Part shown: positions 4,017-64,000 of the stretch, one piece after another
Numbering within the stretch: the stretch's first letter is position 1
How the letters are laid out: each line of letters starts with the position of its first letter
From: Phycisphaerales bacterium
GTDB taxonomy: Bacteria; Planctomycetota; Phycisphaerae; Phycisphaerales; UBA1924
NCBI GenBank assembly: GCA_007693785.1
Contig: RECY01000021.1
Location: 62,001-126,000, forward strand
Length of the DNA: 64,000 nucleotides
Direction: 5' to 3'
Translations under genes and position numbers: made by a program
The notes under the pieces: model-generated
The model's database searches: none
What the model saw: only the letters and a program-made list of their open reading frames with translations
What the model was told of the DNA's origin: nothing

Positions 4017-4027
4017 GCACCCCCGTG

Positions 4028-4048
4028 GCACGGGCGTCCCGCCCGTGC
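4028..4048. repeat. Family C GC-rich hairpin repeat, copy 1
   Basis: A perfect 9-bp stem GCACGGGCG / CGCCCGTGC with a 3-base TCC loop, 11 nt past the dehydrogenase stop. The same core with flanking CGTG recurs at 30178-30198, in reverse orientation at 6278-6298, and as a variant at 53653. It may act as a transcript-end structure, although no T-tract follows. Confidence 0.7.
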
Positions 4049-4060
4049 ATCCGCAGACAT

Positions 4061-4196
4061 GGTGCCATGGAAACGCGGAGCCGACCGTCCGCGGTCGGCG
4101 CACCTTTTCCATGCCGGGCGTAAACAGCATCACGAGCGTGGAAGTCCCGAAACCCGGAAAAGCTCCGCCGCGGCGGCTCCGCGTTACCGGGGCACC
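4061..4196. repeat. Family A two-hairpin intergenic repeat, copy 1 (complete)
   Basis: Bounded by GGTGCC and GGCACC. Hairpin 1 has stem CATGGAAA / TTTTCCATG with an apical GCCGACCG-TCCG-CGGTCGGC helix. Hairpin 2 has CCCGG / CCGGG with a GCCGCCGCGGCGG-like apex. It lies 44 nt past a stop codon and before the next gene. Its reverse complement has the same layout as the copies at 27888-28059 and 51073-51219. Stem bases differ between copies in compensating pairs. Confidence 0.8.
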
Positions 4197-4243
4197 GGAC
4201 GTCAAGCCGTGGCACGGGAGCCTCGCCGCGCAATGATCCTGTC

Positions 4244-6264: not shown

Positions 6265-6277
6265 CTGAGTCGTTCTT

Positions 6278-6298
6278 GCACGGGCGTGGCGCCCGTGC
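6278..6298. repeat. Family C GC-rich hairpin repeat, copy 2
   Basis: Stem GCACGGGCG / CGCCCGTGC with a TGG loop and flanking CCACGGG. It is the reverse-oriented form of the hairpin at 4028. It lies between the convergent flagellin and cysN genes, 16 nt from the cysN stop, so it could end transcripts from either side. Confidence 0.65.
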
Positions 6299-6314
6299 CA
6301 CGGGGGAGCGTTGC

Positions 6315-16195: not shown

Positions 16196-16220
16196 GGCTC
16201 CCCTCCCTCTCGCCCCTCCG

Positions 16221-16252
16221 CCCTAGTGCCTAATGCCCAATGCCTAGTGCCT
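16221..16252. repeat. Heptamer tandem repeat (CCTA[AG]TG)n
   Basis: Four near-identical 7-base units (CCTAGTG, CCTAATG, CCCAATG, CCTAGTG) in tandem. The complementary form GGCATTA-GGCACTA-GGCACTA occurs at 55114-55138. The class resembles short tandemly repeated repetitive sequences known from cyanobacteria. Confidence 0.7.
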
Positions 16253-16442
16253 CCCCGCCCCCCCTTGCCTGCGGTGGGAAGGGCGCTACGCTTCTAGGCT
16301 CGTGTCCGGGCTGCTTGTGCGGCTCGGGTTATGCGCGGGGCGACAACCCAGAACCGGTAGCACCACCGAGCCGCCCGTGATCCCGATGGCCGGGAGCGGG
16401 CGTGCCGAGCGAAAGCTCGGGGCCGGTGGGAGGTGGAGCGCG

Positions 16443-24629: not shown

Positions 24630-24640
24630 GCGGGGAGAGA

Positions 24641-24684
24641 CCCGGAAAAGCTCCGCCGCGGCGGCTCCGCGTTTCCGGGGCACC
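24641..24684. repeat. Family A single-hairpin repeat
   Basis: CCCGGAAAAGCTCCGCCGC...CGTTTCCGGGGCACC, 11 nt past a stop codon and before a convergent gene. The hairpin is nearly perfect. Confidence 0.75.
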
Positions 24685-26337: not shown

Positions 26338-27759
26338 TCAGTGGTCGACGCGTTTGCCGAGCCTCGGCGCGATCTCGCCCATCATCTTTTGGAGCGTGGC
26401 GTCGTTCTTGGCTTCGAGGTTGAGCCGGAGCAGGGGCTCGGTGTTGCTCTTGCGGACGTTGCACCACCACCCGTGCTTGTCGAAGCAGTCGATGGTGACG
26501 CCGTCGAGCTCTTCGAGCGAGCCGTCGTAATCCGAGCCCGGGCCGAAGGTTTCCTTGAGCTCCGCGAGCGCCTCGTCCTTCTCCTCGATCTCGAAGTTGA
26601 CCTCGCCGGACTGGGCGTAGCGGGCGATGGGCTTGACCAGCTCGCTCATCGCCTTGCCCTCCTCGGCCAGCACGCTCAGCACGGTCGCCATCGCGATCAT
26701 GCCCGAGTCGGCGTTGAAGTTGTCCGCGAAATAGAAGTGCCCGCTGAGCTCCCCGCCGAAGCACCCGCGACGCTCGGCCAGCTCCGCCTTCATGAAGACG
26801 TGCCCGACGCGCCCCTTCACCGGCACGCCGCCCGCGTTCTTGATTTCCTCGGCGACCGCTTTGGTCGAGCGCAGGTCGTAGATCACCGCCGTGCCGGGGC
26901 GGGCCTTGAGGAAGTGCTTGCAGAGCACCGCGGTCAGGAGGTCGCACCCGACGATCTTGCCTTGTTCATCGACCACGACGCACCGGTCGGCGTCGCCGTC
27001 GAAGCAGATGCCCAGGTCCGCCTTCTCCGCGACGACCGCTTCCTGCAGCTGCGCGAGGTTGGACGCGACGAGCGGGTTGGGCTCGTGGACGAACTCGCCC
27101 TTGCTGTTGTCGAAGTTCATCTCGACGATCTCGAGCCCGGGCACGTCGGCGCCCTTCTTGCCGAAGACGCGGGGCACGGTCGTGCCGGCCATCCCGTTGC
27201 TGGCGTCGACGACGACCTTGACGGCCTTGCCGCCGAGGTCGAGGAACTGGCGGACGTGGGCGATGTACGCGTCCCAGAGGTCGCGGCTCTCGCTGCGCCC
27301 GATGACGGGCAGCGTGGTGTTGCGATCGACGATCGCGGCGTGCTTGCGGACCTCGGCCAGCCCGGTCGGCTCGCCGACGGGCTTCGCCTTGCGCTTGGAG
27401 ACCTTGAACCCGTTGTACTGCGGCGGGTTGTGGCTGGCGGTGACCATGACCCCGCCCGCGCAGTCGAGGTGGTTGATCGCGAAGTAGACGAAGGGGGTGT
27501 CCACGAGCCCGACGTCGATGACGTCCCCGCCGTGGGTGTTGATCCCGCGGATCAGCTCGCTGGCGAGCTTGGGGCTGCTGGTGCGCATGTCGCGCCCGAC
27601 GACGACGTTCTTCATCATCGGGGTGGATTCGCCGGCGGCCTCGGCGTCGGCGAGCAGGAACTTGCTCACCCCAAAGCCGATCTGCCACGCCATCTGATCC
27701 GTCAGAAGATCGGGGTAGGTCCCGCGAACGTCATACGCCTTGAACACCCGTCCGAGCAT
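26338..27759 (-). CDS. Phosphomannomutase/phosphoglucomutase
   Basis: A 473-residue alpha-D-phosphohexomutase that interconverts hexose 1- and 6-phosphates, supplying GDP-mannose and UDP-glucose pathways. The four domains carry the known motifs: catalytic phosphoserine in TASHNPP (107-113, Ser109), the metal site DGDADR (254-259), sugar-binding GGELSGHFYF, and phosphate-binding RKSNTEPLLRL. The length is normal for the AlgC/ManB branch. The ATG has GGAGA upstream. It probably supports the surface-sugar genes elsewhere in the window. Confidence 0.93.
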   Translation of the reverse strand: MLGRVFKAYDVRGTYPDLLTDQMAWQIGFGVSKFLLADAEAAGESTPMMKNVVVGRDMRTSSPKLASELIRGINTHGGDVIDVGLVDTPFVYFAINHLDCAGGVMVTASHNPPQYNGFKVSKRKAKPVGEPTGLAEVRKHAAIVDRNTTLPVIGRSESRDLWDAYIAHVRQFLDLGGKAVKVVVDASNGMAGTTVPRVFGKKGADVPGLEIVEMNFDNSKGEFVHEPNPLVASNLAQLQEAVVAEKADLGICFDGDADRCVVVDEQGKIVGCDLLTAVLCKHFLKARPGTAVIYDLRSTKAVAEEIKNAGGVPVKGRVGHVFMKAELAERRGCFGGELSGHFYFADNFNADSGMIAMATVLSVLAEEGKAMSELVKPIARYAQSGEVNFEIEEKDEALAELKETFGPGSDYDGSLEELDGVTIDCFDKHGWWCNVRKSNTEPLLRLNLEAKNDATLQKMMGEIAPRLGKRVDH

Positions 27760-27887
27760 CGAGTTCTCCGCTTGCGGTCTGGAAGTTGTCCGGTGCGAGC
27801 GATCGCCCGCCCCGGCTGAGCCGAAAGCCTAGCAGGCGCGCCCGTTCATGGCACACCTGATGGCACGGCGCTCCGAGTTGCGGGACC

Positions 27888-28059
27888 GGTGCCCCGGAAA
27901 CGCGGAGCCGCCGCGGCGGAGCTTTTCCGGGCTCCTCTTCCTCCCGGCCTCCCCCGGCCACGCACCTTTTCGAGAGATCAGTGTTTTAACACCGTCCGCG
28001 CCCGAGCATGGAAAAGCTGCGCCGCCCTCGGAAGGTCGGCTTCGCGTTTCCATGGCACC
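27888..28059. repeat. Family A two-hairpin intergenic repeat (complete, longest)
   Basis: 172 bp between GGTGCC and GGCACC. Hairpin 1 stem is CCGGAAA / TTTTCCGG with a GCCGCCGCGGCGG apex; hairpin 2 stem is CATGGAAA / TTTCCATG. The spacer starts GCTCCTCTTCCTCC. It also contains GAGAGATCAGTGTTTTAACAC, which recalls family B sequence. It ends 9 nt beyond the dinG stop on the minus strand. Confidence 0.85.
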
Positions 28060-30198: not shown

Positions 30199-30224
30199 GC
30201 TCGGGGCGAAGCGGTCGGGGCGAG

Positions 30225-30269
30225 TCCCGGAAAAACTCCGCCGCGGCGGCTGCGCGTTTCCGGGGCACC
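30225..30269. repeat. Family A single-hairpin repeat
   Basis: TCCCGGAAAAACTCCGCCG...CGTTTCCGGGGCACC, 26 nt past the rsmG stop (minus strand). It has the conserved terminal GGCACC. Confidence 0.75.
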
Positions 30270-38559: not shown

Positions 38560-38700
38560 GTGCCACTGACCTCTTCCGAGAGGTCAGTGCTCGCCCTCTG
38601 CTCACGCTCCCACACGTGGTTCTGCAAGAACGACCGGTTCGTGAGCGAAGATAGAGATCAGTAAGGGGAGCACTGACCTTGCAGACAAGATCAGTGGCAC
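38560..38700. repeat. Family B two-hairpin intergenic repeat, copy 1
   Basis: 141 bp bounded by GTGCC and GGCAC. Hairpin 1 is CACTGACCTCT-TCCG-AGAGGTCAGTG (11 bp, UNCG-class loop). Hairpin 2 is CACTGACCTTG-CAGA-CAAGATCAGTG (one mismatch). The segment between starts GCTC and ends GAGC, so a third arm can form. It sits between a small gene and the convergent pcrA. Confidence 0.88.
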
Positions 38701-49156: not shown

Positions 49157-50221
<1,065 letters not shown>

Positions 50222-50227
50222 TTCCCT

Positions 50228-50360
50228 GTGCCACTGACCTCTTCCGAGAGGTCAGTGCTCCCCCTTCTCCCCTCTCTCCCACTCTCTTCCCGGATCGAGC
50301 ATGAGAAGGAACAAAGAGGGCGGCCCGGAGCACTGACCTTGCAGACAAGGTCAGTGGCAC
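50228..50360. repeat. Family B two-hairpin intergenic repeat, copy 2
   Basis: 133 bp. Hairpin 1 CACTGACCTCT-TCCG-AGAGGTCAGTG and hairpin 2 CACTGACCTTG-CAGA-CAAGGTCAGTG are both perfect 11-bp stems. The spacer is pyrimidine-rich (CCCCTTCTCCCC), then purine-rich. It begins 6 nt past the moxR stop and is followed by ATTTTT, so on the plus strand it could end the transcript. Confidence 0.9.
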
Positions 50361-50401
50361 ATTTTTCCGCTCTCACATGCCCAGCACACGCGGAGCCACC
50401 C

Positions 50402-51061
50402 ATGCCCCACACCATCGACACCACCCCCGCCGGCGGCCCGCACGCCGGGCGGCCCGTCCTGCACGCGGGCCCGGAACTGGACCAGGCCGAGCGGGTCGCG
50501 GTGATGGTCCACGGGCGCGGCGGGCGAGCCGAGGACATGCTAAGCCTCCACCGCGCCCTCGACGTGCCCACCCTCGCCGCCCTCGCCCCGCAGGCCAGCG
50601 AAAACACCTGGTATCCCCAGTCCTTCATGGCCCCGGGCGAGGCGAACCGCGAGGGGATCGCCTCCGTCCACGCCGTGCTGGAGTCGATCATCGAGCAGCT
50701 CGACGCCCTGGGCGTGCCGAGCGAGCGGGTGGTGCTGATCGGCTTCAGCCAGGGCGCGTGCGTCGCGGCCGACCACCCCGCGAGGTTCCCGAGGCGCTAC
50801 GCCCTCGTCGCGGCCCTCACCGGCGGGCTCATCGGCCCCGAAAACACCGACTTCGACACCCTCCAGGGCGATCTCCAAGCCACCCCCGTTTTCCTGGGGG
50901 CCAACGACCCGGACCCGCACGTTCCCTGGTCCCGCGTGGAAACGTCGGCCGCCGTGTTGGAGCGGATGGGGGCGAAGGTGACGATCAAGCGATACCCCGG
51001 CGAGCCCCACGCCGTGAATCGGGATCAGGTGGAGACCGTCCGGGCGATGTTGGGTGGATAA
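50402..51061 (+). CDS. Phospholipase/carboxylesterase-family alpha/beta hydrolase
   Basis: A 219-residue serine esterase of the short-chain type (YpfH/phospholipase-carboxylesterase). The oxyanion-hole strand VAVMVHGRGGRAEDML precedes the nucleophile elbow LIGFSQGACVA. The charge relay is DPHVP (Asp) and EPHAVN (His), and the substrate-pocket strand is ALAPQASENTWYPQSF. It is cytoplasmic with no signal peptide. The ATG at 50402 has GGAG seven bases upstream. It is flanked on both sides by repeat elements (families B and A). Confidence 0.88.
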   Translation: MPHTIDTTPAGGPHAGRPVLHAGPELDQAERVAVMVHGRGGRAEDMLSLHRALDVPTLAALAPQASENTWYPQSFMAPGEANREGIASVHAVLESIIEQLDALGVPSERVVLIGFSQGACVAADHPARFPRRYALVAALTGGLIGPENTDFDTLQGDLQATPVFLGANDPDPHVPWSRVETSAAVLERMGAKVTIKRYPGEPHAVNRDQVETVRAMLGG

Positions 51062-51072
51062 CGGGCATATCT

Positions 51073-51219
51073 GGTGCCCCGGAAACGCGTAGCCGCCGCG
51101 GCGGAGCTTTTCCGGGCTCCCCTTTCTCCATTTCTCCCTCGCTCGCCCGACCCCGTCCGCTTCCGATCCTGGAAAAGCTACGCGATCCGCGGCGGATCGC
51201 TCCACGTTTCCAGGGCACC
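51073..51219. repeat. Family A two-hairpin intergenic repeat (complete)
   Basis: 147 bp from GGTGCC to GGCACC, 11 nt past the esterase stop. Hairpin 1 has CCGGAAA / TTTTCCGG. Hairpin 2 has CCTGGAAA / TTTCCAGG with apex GCGATCC-GCGGC-GGATCGC. Hairpin 2 differs from the copies at 4061 and 27888 at both members of its base pairs. The spacer begins GCTCCCCTTTCTCC. Confidence 0.88.
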
Positions 51220-51634
51220 GGAGGGGAAACATCGCGTGGCGTGCGGGCTATGCTTCCGGGCATCGAGTTGGGCCGTCCGCGACGGACGCCGGTGGGGCGA
51301 GAGCCTCCCCGGCCGAGGCGCGGCATGGGTCCTGCCTCCGAGCGGCGGAGGGGGGTCCAGCCCAGGCGGTCGTGCTTGCCTGTATGGGGCAAGGCGTTCG
51401 CTCAGCCGCGGCCTTCGCGTGCGGACCCGGGATCGTCCCGGGCGGCGTCGGACCGCGATTCTTCGGCATCGACGGTTCGGCCCCGTGCGGCTTCACACCC
51501 GCGCGGCCCACAGCACACGGAGGCAGCGCAACGATCGCCAGGCTCCACCGCCCCGGCATCGAACGATCCACGCGACGACTGACCACGCCGGCGTTCCGGG
51601 CTCACCAGCCCTCGACCGACCGGCCGCGGACCTC
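51220..51634. other. Gene-free, GC-rich region before tRNA-Gln
   Basis: About 415 bp without a credible gene. It has several short hairpins, for example GACCCGGGATCGTCCCGGG near 51424 and GGGTCC repeats near 51350. I compared it by eye with RNase P, SRP, 6S and tmRNA hallmarks and saw no match. It may contain the promoter of the tRNA-Gln. Confidence 0.4.
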
Positions 51635-54463: not shown

Positions 54464-55102
54464 ATGCGACTCATCGTCGGCCTCGGCAACCCGGGACGCG
54501 AGTACCACGACACCCGCCACAACGCGGGTTTCATGGTCATCGATCGGCTGATCGCTCGGCACGCGCCGGGCGAGCCGCTCCGCTCGCGCTTCCACGCCGG
54601 CGTCGTCGAGGCCGCACTCCCGGGCGCGGGCCGGTGCCTGCTCGTCAAGCCCACGACCTACATGAACCTTTCGGGCAGGAGCGTCCTCGAGGCCTGCCAG
54701 TTCTACAAGATCGACCCGCAGACCCAGCTCCTGGTCGTCCTCGACGAGGTCGCGCTCCCCACGGGCGTGATCAAGCTCGGCGCCTCCGGCGGCACCGGCG
54801 GGCACAACGGGCTCCGCGACATCCAGCGCCTGCTGGGTTCGGAGCTCTACCCGAGGCTGCGGGTCGGGATCGGGGAGCCCCCGGCGCCGATCGCGCGGGC
54901 CGACTGGGTGCTGGGCAAGTTCACGGAGGCGGAACTGGGGGCGATGGGGCCCGCGCTCGACCGGGCGGCCGACGCGGCCGAGCGGTTCGCGAGCGAGGGC
55001 ATCGACGGCGCGATGAACGCCTTCAACGGGGCCGCCCAGTCGGGGCAGTCCTCGGGCTGGAACGCGAAGCCCGCGGATATCGATCCGGGGTGGGGGGCGT
55101 AG
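54464..55102 (+). CDS. pth: Peptidyl-tRNA hydrolase
   Basis: A 212-residue Pth, which releases peptides from peptidyl-tRNA. The N-terminal motif LIVGLGNPGREYHDTRHNAGF has the catalytic His-containing R-H-N. KPTTYMNLSGRSV, LDEVALPTGVIKLGASGGTGGHNGLRDI and RLRVGIGEP are the other conserved blocks. The length is slightly above the usual 190 because of a C-terminal Gly/Asn-rich extension. The start ATG at 54464 fits the family N-terminus; no strong Shine-Dalgarno is visible. Confidence 0.95.
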   Translation: MRLIVGLGNPGREYHDTRHNAGFMVIDRLIARHAPGEPLRSRFHAGVVEAALPGAGRCLLVKPTTYMNLSGRSVLEACQFYKIDPQTQLLVVLDEVALPTGVIKLGASGGTGGHNGLRDIQRLLGSELYPRLRVGIGEPPAPIARADWVLGKFTEAELGAMGPALDRAADAAERFASEGIDGAMNAFNGAAQSGQSSGWNAKPADIDPGWGA

Positions 55103-55113
55103 GTGGGGGGGAA

Positions 55114-55138
55114 GGCATTAGGCACTAGGCACTAGGGC
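55114..55138. repeat. Heptamer tandem repeat, second copy
   Basis: GGCATTA GGCACTA GGCACTA GGGC, complementary in sense to the tract at 16221-16252. It lies 11 nt past the pth stop and is followed by an alternating purine tract. Confidence 0.7.
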
Positions 55139-55268
55139 AGAGAGAGATAGAGAGCGCAGAGACAGGGAATTTGATTGCGGGCGCGTGTGCGCCGTGGATG
55201 GGTGCGATTTTTTGGACCAAACTTGCGGGCTTGTGGGCCCGTGTAGAGCGAAGCAGTAAGGGAAGACC

Positions 55269-56422: not shown

Positions 56423-56556
56423 GTGCCACTGACCTCTTCCGAGAGGTCAGTGCTCCCAAGCTTCTCCCTCTTCCCATGCCCCTCCCGAGAGGAGCGTGCG
56501 AAGAGCCTGAGGAGGGCGGTCCGGAGCACTGACCTTGCGGACAAGGTCAGTGGCAC
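56423..56556. repeat. Family B two-hairpin intergenic repeat, copy 3
   Basis: 134 bp, 25 nt past the ssb stop. Hairpin 1 is identical to copies 1 and 2; hairpin 2 has loop CGGA instead of CAGA with the stem intact. The spacer begins GCTCCCAAGCTTCTCC and has its own small hairpin CTCCCGAGAGGAG. Confidence 0.9.
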
Positions 56557-56593: not shown

Positions 56594-56645
56594 GGTGCCC
56601 CGGAAACGCGCAGCCGCCGCGGCGGAGCCTTTCCGGGCTCCCCCT
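56594..56645. repeat. Family A half element (hairpin 1 only)
   Basis: GGTGCCCCGGAAACGCGC then GCCGCCGCGGCGG and TTTCCGGGCTCCCC, 37 nt after family B copy 3. The second hairpin and terminal GGCACC are absent, so this is a half copy. It lies in the leader of rplI. Confidence 0.75.
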
Positions 56646-62811: not shown

Positions 62812-64000
62812 TCATGGATTGCCTTGGGCCCCCGGGTTGCCGTTCGAGCCTCCACGGCCGCTGCCGGAGTTGCCCCCCTCGCCGCCGGAGCCGCCGCTGC
62901 CATTCCCGGCACCGTTACCCCCGCGACCACCGTTGCCACCACTGCCCCCGTTGCCCCGGTTGCCGGCGTTCCCCCCATCGCCGCCTTTGCCGCCATCGCC
63001 ACCTTTGCCGTTGGTATTCGAGTTGCCGCCGCTGCCGCCGTTGCCTCCATCGCCGCCGGTGCCGCGATTCGAACCGCCGGTGCCCCCTTTTCCGCCTTCG
63101 CCTCCATTACCGGCGTTTCGCGGGTTCCCTGTAGTATGACCGCCATCGCCTCCGGAAGCGCCTCGACCGCCCGAGCCCGAGCCACTGCCGTTGCCGCCGG
63201 CACCCCCTTCTCCGCCGTTGCCGCCGCGTTCAGAGTTCCCGTTCCCTCCGGGACCACCGCGCCCTCCATTACCGCCATTCCCGGTGTTTCCACCCCCGGA
63301 GCCACCTTCGCCACCCTTGCCGCCGGCACCGCTTGGTTGACTCACGAAACCTTCACCGCCCGCACCCGCGTCACCTCCGGAGCCACCGTTTCCGTAACTG
63401 TCGCCGCCTGCGCCGCCGTTGCCGCCATCTCCGCCGTTGCCGCCGGAACCGGCATTGCCTCCGGATCCCCCGTGCCCGCCACTCGCCGGGCCGTCGCCCT
63501 TGCCGCCGCTTCCGCCGTTGCCACCATCTTTTCCATTGCCGCCCGATCCGCCGGAGCCGCCTTTCCCTCCAGGACGTCCAGAACCCGGCACGGCATCACC
63601 GCCTTTACCCCCATCGCCGCCTTTACCAGGTGGCCATCCAAAACGGGTTTCACCGGAGCCGCCGTCGCCCCCGTTGCCACCGGGCCCCCCGTCGCCGCCG
63701 GGGCCGCCGTTGGGTGCGAACGGATTGTCGTCCGCACTCCCAGGCCAGCCTGGCGCGCCATTCGGGCGGTGCGGATTATTTGGATGATCGCCAGGGCATC
63801 CGTAGCAATGTGGGTTACAGCGTGGGTGATACTGCCCCGGCTTCCATGCATTCCATTCCTTACAGGTCTTGCACCCTTCGAGGTCATCCGCCGGATCACC
63901 GCCCGGTTGTGAAGCATCGGTCAGCGCGCCCAGCGTCTGTTGCGGCCCGACGCCCAGTGCTCCAACGATCGCCCACACCGTCCCGCACCCGTCATCGATC
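62812..64000 (-). CDS. Gly-rich repeat protein (PGRS-like), 5' end cut by window edge
   Basis: At least 395 residues, with the frame open to the window edge, so the N-terminus is missing. After a short Cys-rich head (CKTCKEWNAWKPGQYHPRC then CYGCPGDHPN) come about 300 residues of GGxGG-type repeats (GGDGGKGGDGGNGGSGG...). The repeats use varied Gly/Asp/Asn/Ser/Lys residues, as in mycobacterial PE_PGRS tails and collagen-like or calcium-binding repeat proteins. The visible Cys pairs could hold a metal. The product is probably secreted or surface-located, but no signal peptide is visible here. The repeat DNA is not a simple tandem repeat, because synonymous codons vary. A strong terminator follows. 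Confidence 0.8.
   Translation of the reverse strand, partial: IDDGCGTVWAIVGALGVGPQQTLGALTDASQPGGDPADDLEGCKTCKEWNAWKPGQYHPRCNPHCYGCPGDHPNNPHRPNGAPGWPGSADDNPFAPNGGPGGDGGPGGNGGDGGSGETRFGWPPGKGGDGGKGGDAVPGSGRPGGKGGSGGSGGNGKDGGNGGSGGKGDGPASGGHGGSGGNAGSGGNGGDGGNGGAGGDSYGNGGSGGDAGAGGEGFVSQPSGAGGKGGEGGSGGGNTGNGGNGGRGGPGGNGNSERGGNGGEGGAGGNGSGSGSGGRGASGGDGGHTTGNPRNAGNGGEGGKGGTGGSNRGTGGDGGNGGSGGNSNTNGKGGDGGKGGDGGNAGNRGNGGSGGNGGRGGNGAGNGSGGSGGEGGNSGSGRGGSNGNPGAQGNP

Follow-up and report, generated by a model that had tools for sequence, protein, structure and literature searches.

The short palindromic repeats of families A and B in the window (the whole stretch of 64,000 nucleotides that was analysed), together with two further stem families, C and D, are very probably non-autonomous REP/REPIN-type elements of a HuH/Y1 transposase (RAYT, TnpAREP). 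The reading rests on the excess of a shared tag, dispersed copies, covarying stems, constant doublets, nesting and the adjacency of a RAYT gene. Each unit consists of a tag, nearly always GTGC, with a hairpin directly after it, and two inverted units with their tags facing outwards form a doublet.

Three B doublets, three A doublets and three single A units were located in the window. B copy 2 and a complete A copy lie on either side of one esterase gene, as described in the first-pass annotation, and this gene is a neighbour of both elements and no part of either. The features are as follows:

4062-4198, + strand: family A doublet, left unit 4062-4117 of the CATGG type, right unit at about 4153-4198 with a stem mismatch
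24637-24683, - strand: family A single unit, from the unit scan
27889-28058, + strand: family A doublet, left unit of the CCCGG type, right unit of the CATGG type; predicted fold z -5.41
30222-30268, - strand: family A single unit, from the unit scan
38560-38700, + strand: family B doublet, copy 1; predicted fold z -4.90
50228-50360, + strand: family B doublet, copy 2, units 50228-50261 (+) and 50327-50360 (-), loop types 1 and 2
50402-51061, + strand: esterase-type gene, Abhydrolase_2 (PF02230, 60.6 bits), between B copy 2 and the A doublet
51073-51219, + strand: complete family A doublet, units 51074-51120 (+) and 51164-51218 (-); predicted fold z -4.60
56423-56556, + strand: family B doublet, copy 3; predicted fold z -7.00
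56595-56641, + strand: family A single unit, from the unit scan, which found no inverted partner for it

B copy 2 is laid out as GTGC-CACTGACCTCTTCCGAGAGGTCAGTG-CTCC, a pyrimidine-rich spacer and the inverted unit at 50327-50360, and the A doublet at 51073-51219 is made of long hairpins, each with an internal bulge.

Strong hairpins were listed regardless of tag in the window and in contig C13 of the same genome (448,582 bp together), giving 154 hairpins with 308 feet. Tetranucleotide frequency predicts 2.1 feet with GTGC and 1.6 with GGAG, the latter being the inner foot on the other strand; the list contained 42 and 33, respectively. A tag scan with loose stems had its largest raw counts for GC-rich tags such as CGCG and placed GTGC outside the top 15; the evidence used here is the strict hairpin list. 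A further search of the window and C13, which used the stem and allowed any tag, yielded 61 A and B units. The tag was GTGC in all 15 A units of the CCCGG type, in 9/14 of the CATGG type (GTGG in the other 5) and in 31 of the 32 B units (64 readings of a palindrome), that is, 55/61 GTGC and 5/61 GTGG overall, every GTGG belonging to the A CATGG type, with both doublets at the genome's own RAYT included; GTAG was not seen among these 61 listed units. The inner CTCC was present in 23/32 B units and 6/15 A CCCGG-type units, while the tails listed for the A CATGG type (14 units) did not include it, ATCG and CCGG being the commonest there. Since CTCC is variable and GTGC near-constant, the frame is constant in its outer tag rather than in the GCTCC arm.

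These counts bear out the earlier proposal that A and B form one class of elements with a common outer tag, and they redraw its anatomy. The shared ends, first given as GTGCC and GGCAC, are real as an outer tag, but this tag is GTGC at the foot of the stem, the fifth base (C) being the first base of the stem itself. The GCTCC-led arm exists in B and on one side of A but falls outside the constant frame, and the GCTC/GAGC central arm of B, once counted as part of that frame, differs between the B copies read. The hairpin sequences are unrelated between A and B, as had been stated, while the two hairpins of one doublet are inverted relatives of each other.

Further stems with the same frame occur in contig C13, namely C (CACGGCTTGG...) and D (CACGGTTTGGATTC...), and for the seven C and D units no inverted partner was found by eye in the next 110 nt. 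Units and doublets were counted over the window, contig C13 and loci L001-L061. The base 5' of the tag was G in 69/69 A units and in 8/8 C and D units, frequently with TCC ahead of that G, and T in 73/78 B units. Covariation was evident in the stems of both families. Among 57 distinct A units, the second pair was A-T in 27 and C-G in 30, and the third was T-A in 25, C-G in 31 and T-G in one; A units formed 7.96 of 9 pairs against at most 7.23 in 1000 shuffles, a comparison in which admission at ≥ 7 of 9 pairs and the choice of the end with maximal pairing both favour the stem. In B, pairs 10 and 11 alternate between C-G/T-A and T-A/G-C, and pair 4 is non-standard in 8 of the 31 distinct units.

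The single-stranded DNA folds predicted for three B and two A copies are in each case a single long hairpin, formed by pairing of one unit with the other, and all five were more stable than every one of 200 shuffles (z from -4.6 to -7.0; -34.9 kcal/mol and z -5.05 for B copy 2). The four-way junction, or cloverleaf, that was at first suggested is not supported as the main structure: a forced cloverleaf was 4 to 24 kcal/mol less stable than the long hairpin in 5/5 elements (-29.1 kcal/mol for B copy 2). This cloverleaf was pieced together from both local hairpins, the fold of the spacer and the four outermost pairs, each taken separately, so that a better one may exist. As an alternative form, the cloverleaf may occur. 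A search of positions 50000-51500 against Rfam 15 returned two matches, both under the gathering score, and thus no known structured RNA.

Complete A and B elements span 98-245 bp. All 25 complete A elements pair a CC-type unit with a different type (22 AT, 2 AC, 1 CT), and loop types 1 and 2 are joined in 23 of the 29 complete B elements, two others being 2+2 and four untyped. Free movement of single units would yield many like-with-like pairs, so that this constant composition suggests that the moving unit of A and B is probably the doublet. Copies are also nested in one another. On contig C19, a B element has a complete A element in its spacer, and the B elements at C13:20548-20736 and C13:267675-267852 each contain a C unit; these last two loci have similar upstream flanks and may not be independent. 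Directly 5' of several B elements (C13:267647, and also L004 and L022), a stretch of about 26 nt, CAAAGGGCCAAAGRGCCAGATCCGGA, was observed; this would be a second repeat, which may harbour some B copies or have travelled with them. In addition, D, B and A units form arrays of one orientation over short stretches at C13:226150-226540, 265490-265810 and 269490-269930.

The statement that no transposase is present holds inside the window, but the search for a RAYT gene, suggested at the outset, found one on contig C13 with family A on both flanks. The search covered the Y1 type in an assembly of 3.06 Mb (45 contigs, 95.5% complete), in which the only Y1 transposase over threshold is encoded at C13:27155-27610. 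This protein of 171 aa scores about 107.6 bits (cut-off 80) with model NF047646 for REP-associated tyrosine transposases, and has the HuH and Y residues of the RAYT/TnpAREP family; its HxH, W and Y columns are invariant in all 19 aligned RAYTs, its motifs are EHVH, WQ and YIHxNP, and the closest solved structure is the TnpArep 4er8 (E 6e-8). With the IS200 model NF033573 it reaches 22.7 bits, below the cut-off of 55, and tblastn of the RAYT against plasmid records gave only matches of < 60% identity, in 14 records. The A copies at C13:26942-27086 and 27653-27797 lie within about 50 bp of the gene, in direct orientation to each other and each internally inverted, and their CCCGG-type units carry GTGC while their CATGG-type units carry GTGG. 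The comparison with RAYT-associated REP elements proposed at the start was the right one. For family B, no RAYT with B flanks was found in this assembly.

Of 120 genomes from the same family, 30 (in 24 of 74 genera) carried B-type units, and the reversed pattern used as control had no match; a generic pattern search in ten genomes was left unused, its reversed control having given up to two matches per strand. In one genome of another genus (G138), the RAYT at locus L144 is bracketed by a B doublet upstream, made of a TC-type and a TTG-type unit, and by a B unit with the tag GTGG downstream. With A at the RAYT of the present genome and B at that of G138, each family is linked to a RAYT, in different genomes.

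RAYT neighbourhoods were also surveyed in a sample of named genomes (the best 80 of 499 matches), which are mostly Planctomycetota with some Fimbriimonad, Zixibacteria and Electryonea records and overlap the family-genome sets. Within 400 bp of the RAYT, there were 212 hairpins with feet GTGC (71), GGGT (29), GTGG (26) and GTAG (0), and beyond 700 bp 112 hairpins with GTGC (13), GTGG (3) and GTAG (2). GTGC thus made up 71/424 feet near the gene and 13/224 far from it among these best 80 matches; distant GTGC feet are as expected of dispersed repeats, and the contrast is no proof of linkage. The RAYT-tag association was counted on 144 loci, left from 157 once identical proteins and loci lacking an E 1e-5 match had been removed. 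A GTGC or GTGG hairpin lay within 400 bp of 79 of the 119 distinct RAYTs with the motif GGG[YF]D, as against 3 of the 25 other Y1 proteins (L194, a 99-residue fragment, L212 and L231). Of the former, 65 had GTGC and 23 GTGG, including nine with both (56 GTGC only, 14 GTGG only), among them the RAYT of the present genome; one had GTAG, and 40 had neither a GTGC nor a GTGG hairpin within this distance. The claim of exchangeable hairpins in one frame gains from these loci, since other palindromes with the same tag adjoin the RAYT genes of relatives. In a separate set, an exact GTGC foot was found at none of 14 non-GGG[YF]D loci, and L127 passed a looser test.

Two side observations concern these loci. 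Another Y1 type, with the motif WQ(D/R/Q)E(Y/S)(F/H/Y)DR and open frames of about 370 aa or more, occurs in relatives (L104, L108, L109, L150, L151, L161 and L163), with no GTGC or GTGG hairpin within 400 bp. The RAYTs at L139, L141, L154 and L178 lie beside other hairpins (GGCGCAGT..., CGAAGGCCACG...), with no GTGC foot listed; the first three are of the GGG[YF]D type, and L178 is provisionally grouped with them.

Other explanations of the repeats were weighed against these results. Chance hairpins are abundant in GC-rich genomes, and two unrelated palindromic families could have come to share their ends by coincidence, but GTGC and GGAG exceed their expected numbers among the 154 hairpins, the tag stays constant when units are found by the stem alone, and it adjoins RAYTs of other genera. 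The foot counts and the stem-only search rule out chance sharing of the ends, and we give this explanation practically no credence. It is very improbable that the repeats are classical MITEs moved by an unrelated DDE-type insertion sequence, with RAYTs as chance neighbours. The elements do resemble MITEs in being short, inverted-repeat and too short for a gene, and such a reading is helped by the incompleteness of the assembly (95.5%, 45 contigs) and by a transposase search that covered the Y1 type; it does not fit with the same tag and different palindromes adjoining one RAYT subtype in many genera, nor with element ends that are each a hairpin, and visual inspection of the sequences read showed no evident target-site duplication.

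Alternatively, the elements could be kept for a host function, their mobility being ancient; host roles such as transcription termination or mRNA stabilisation have been hypothesised for REPs in the text of PMC3733652. The window copies lie between ORFs, several of which have Pfam matches, and two terminator-like matches overlap the elements of B copy 2 and the A doublet where 0.5 were expected. On the other hand, a T-run next to the stem, on either strand, was present in only 1/70 A-D units of the window and C13 (3/70 were stemless by this test), which rejects terminators as the whole explanation; unrelated stems sharing one tag would be needless for a terminator, and nested copies point to insertion. 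We consider this account unlikely, and host-function and mobile-element readings are compatible with each other. The status of B is less clear-cut, and whether it is a remnant here, with its cognate RAYT lost and only A still served, is close to an even question that leans slightly to the negative. The single RAYT of the assembly is flanked by A, and among the RAYT loci read two-sided B flanking was limited to G138; against this, 82 exact-pattern B units persist in the whole genome with a mostly constant doublet composition, and B may still be served, either by a RAYT that the incomplete assembly lacks or by the one with A flanks acting in trans.

For the REPIN/RAYT reading, movement of A and B is suggested by nested copies, constant doublets and covariation, while no excision, insertion or empty site was seen, and the role of the RAYT is inferred from known TnpAREP biochemistry. 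According to the text of PMC8266576, TnpAREP of E. coli cuts single-stranded REP at CT and requires the tag. By analogy, when the DNA is single-stranded, e.g., on the lagging strand, the RAYT would bind the tagged hairpins, cut next to them and move the doublet to new intergenic sites, which are often pyrimidine-rich. The tag would take the guide role held by GT[AG]G in known REPs, the stem would be family-specific, and, as a guess, the site of cutting may be marked by what stands 5' of the tag, [AC]T in B and TCCG in A. Cutting, strand choice and movement by this particular RAYT, like the guide role of its tag, are thus putative.

Among known systems, the nearest are the REPIN and BIME doublets with RAYT of P. 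fluorescens SBW25 and E. coli. They share with the elements described here the tagged short palindromes, the inverted doublets in many dispersed copies and a RAYT gene bordered by repeat copies, as well as the predicted long single-strand hairpin of REPINs (text of PMC3116915) and the two different REP types per doublet, Y and Z2, of the E. coli BIME (text of PMC6006769); some units here even carry the known REP tag GTGG. They differ in that the usual tag is GTGC here and GT[AG]G there, and in the RAYT loop, which is WQxGGG[YF]DR here and one residue longer than in 4er8 and FWEH-type relatives. Under a strict GT[AG]G definition, most of the units are not REPs, the tag being GTGC in 55/61; under a broad one (guide, hairpin doublet, cognate RAYT), they are a REPIN system, as a foot tetranucleotide, dispersed inverted doublets and a RAYT flanked by the family (for B, in G138 only) were all found. 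REPINs, RAYTs and relatives without GTAG (class 3, subclass 2.6, TIRYTs) are already described in the texts of PMC3116915, PMC6006769 and PMC3733652, and searches of the main text of open-access papers found no description of a GTGC-tagged class.

Subclass 2.6 and class 3 of TnpAY1 likewise have RAYT-like genes and atypical hairpins without GT[AG]G in the account of PMC6006769. By the same text, the subclass 2.6 motifs NH[LIV]H, WQ and YIH[QN]NP are close to EHVH, WQ and YIHxNP here, but most of this subclass comes from Bacteroidetes; class 3 has some planctomycetal members, but also a W[TA] motif, a Y...EQ motif and the foot CnGA. In a comparison with the published TnpAY1 motif table (2.1-2.8 and class 3), the nearest row to the RAYT of this genome is 2.6, an inexact match, and the system here may be identical with 2.6. 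The TIRYT/TIRtron system, as presented in the text of PMC3733652, also has a RAYT-like gene, with non-GTAG repeats on its flanks that can occur as families, dimers and clusters; its TIR motif GGGGWSAS, judged from the text description, differs from the tag here, where the repeats that flank the RAYT are themselves tagged doublets (the two A copies) pointing in one direction. With IS200/IS605, the common traits are a HuH/Y1 enzyme, subterminal hairpins and a tetranucleotide guide (text of PMC6006769), but elements of 98-245 bp are too short for a gene, and the RAYT scores 22.7 against the 55 bits of the IS200 cut-off. The REP/REPIN literature is mainly on GT[AG]G-tagged elements, and a search for GT[AG]G only would miss most of the elements described here, which account for a conspicuous fraction of this genome's intergenic hairpins. 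The GTGC class, found in planctomycetes and a few other phyla, combines numerous palindromes with a RAYT subtype of its own and offers a natural experiment in the reading of guide and stem by HuH transposases.

We judge it an even question whether REPINs guided by GTGC or GTGG are driven by a RAYT subclass that has the loop WQxGGG[YF]DR. RAYTs of this kind are common in Planctomycetota and occur also in records of Fimbriimonad, Zixibacteria and Electryonea. Aligned with 4er8, the GGG loop falls on WQPR-FWEH and has one residue more. For E. coli TnpAREP, the text of PMC6006769 associates W94, Q95, E100, H101 and R104 with the GTAG guide, and it is plausible that a changed guide goes with a changed loop. 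On a quick FastTree tree, in which 48/127 inner branches are weakly supported, the GGG[YF]D group needs three changes and is thus clustered, though perhaps not a single clade, and guide switches within it number 11 at the fewest. Both guides even coexist in one element, GTGC on the CCCGG-type and GTGG on the CATGG-type unit at the RAYT of this genome. In a residue scan of 73 rows, from which the nine RAYTs with both tags were left out, residue 19 was R in 54/58 beside GTGC, and N in 7/15 and R in 5/15 beside GTGG. Its mutual information was 0.273 against a shuffled 95% maximum of 0.241, position 121 being equally high (0.275), and the tree offers five independent pairs on well-supported branches, too few for a sign test to reach 0.05. 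Residue 19 is therefore a statistically weak first candidate, a lead only, for what sets the guide. If the proposed subclass is real, it would be a natural series for finding which residues do so.

Several other repeats were observed in the window. Another palindrome family, GCACGGGCG...CGCCCGTGC with CCACGG adjoining, occurs at 4017-4049, at 6277-6309 and near 30222, and its stem is unrelated to those of A-D. Short GTGCCTAATGCC-like strings are present as inverted copies at 16216-16264 and 55094-55142, and GC-rich repeats with a 9-base spacing make up a long run within open frames at 62851-63707, perhaps encoding a repetitive protein.
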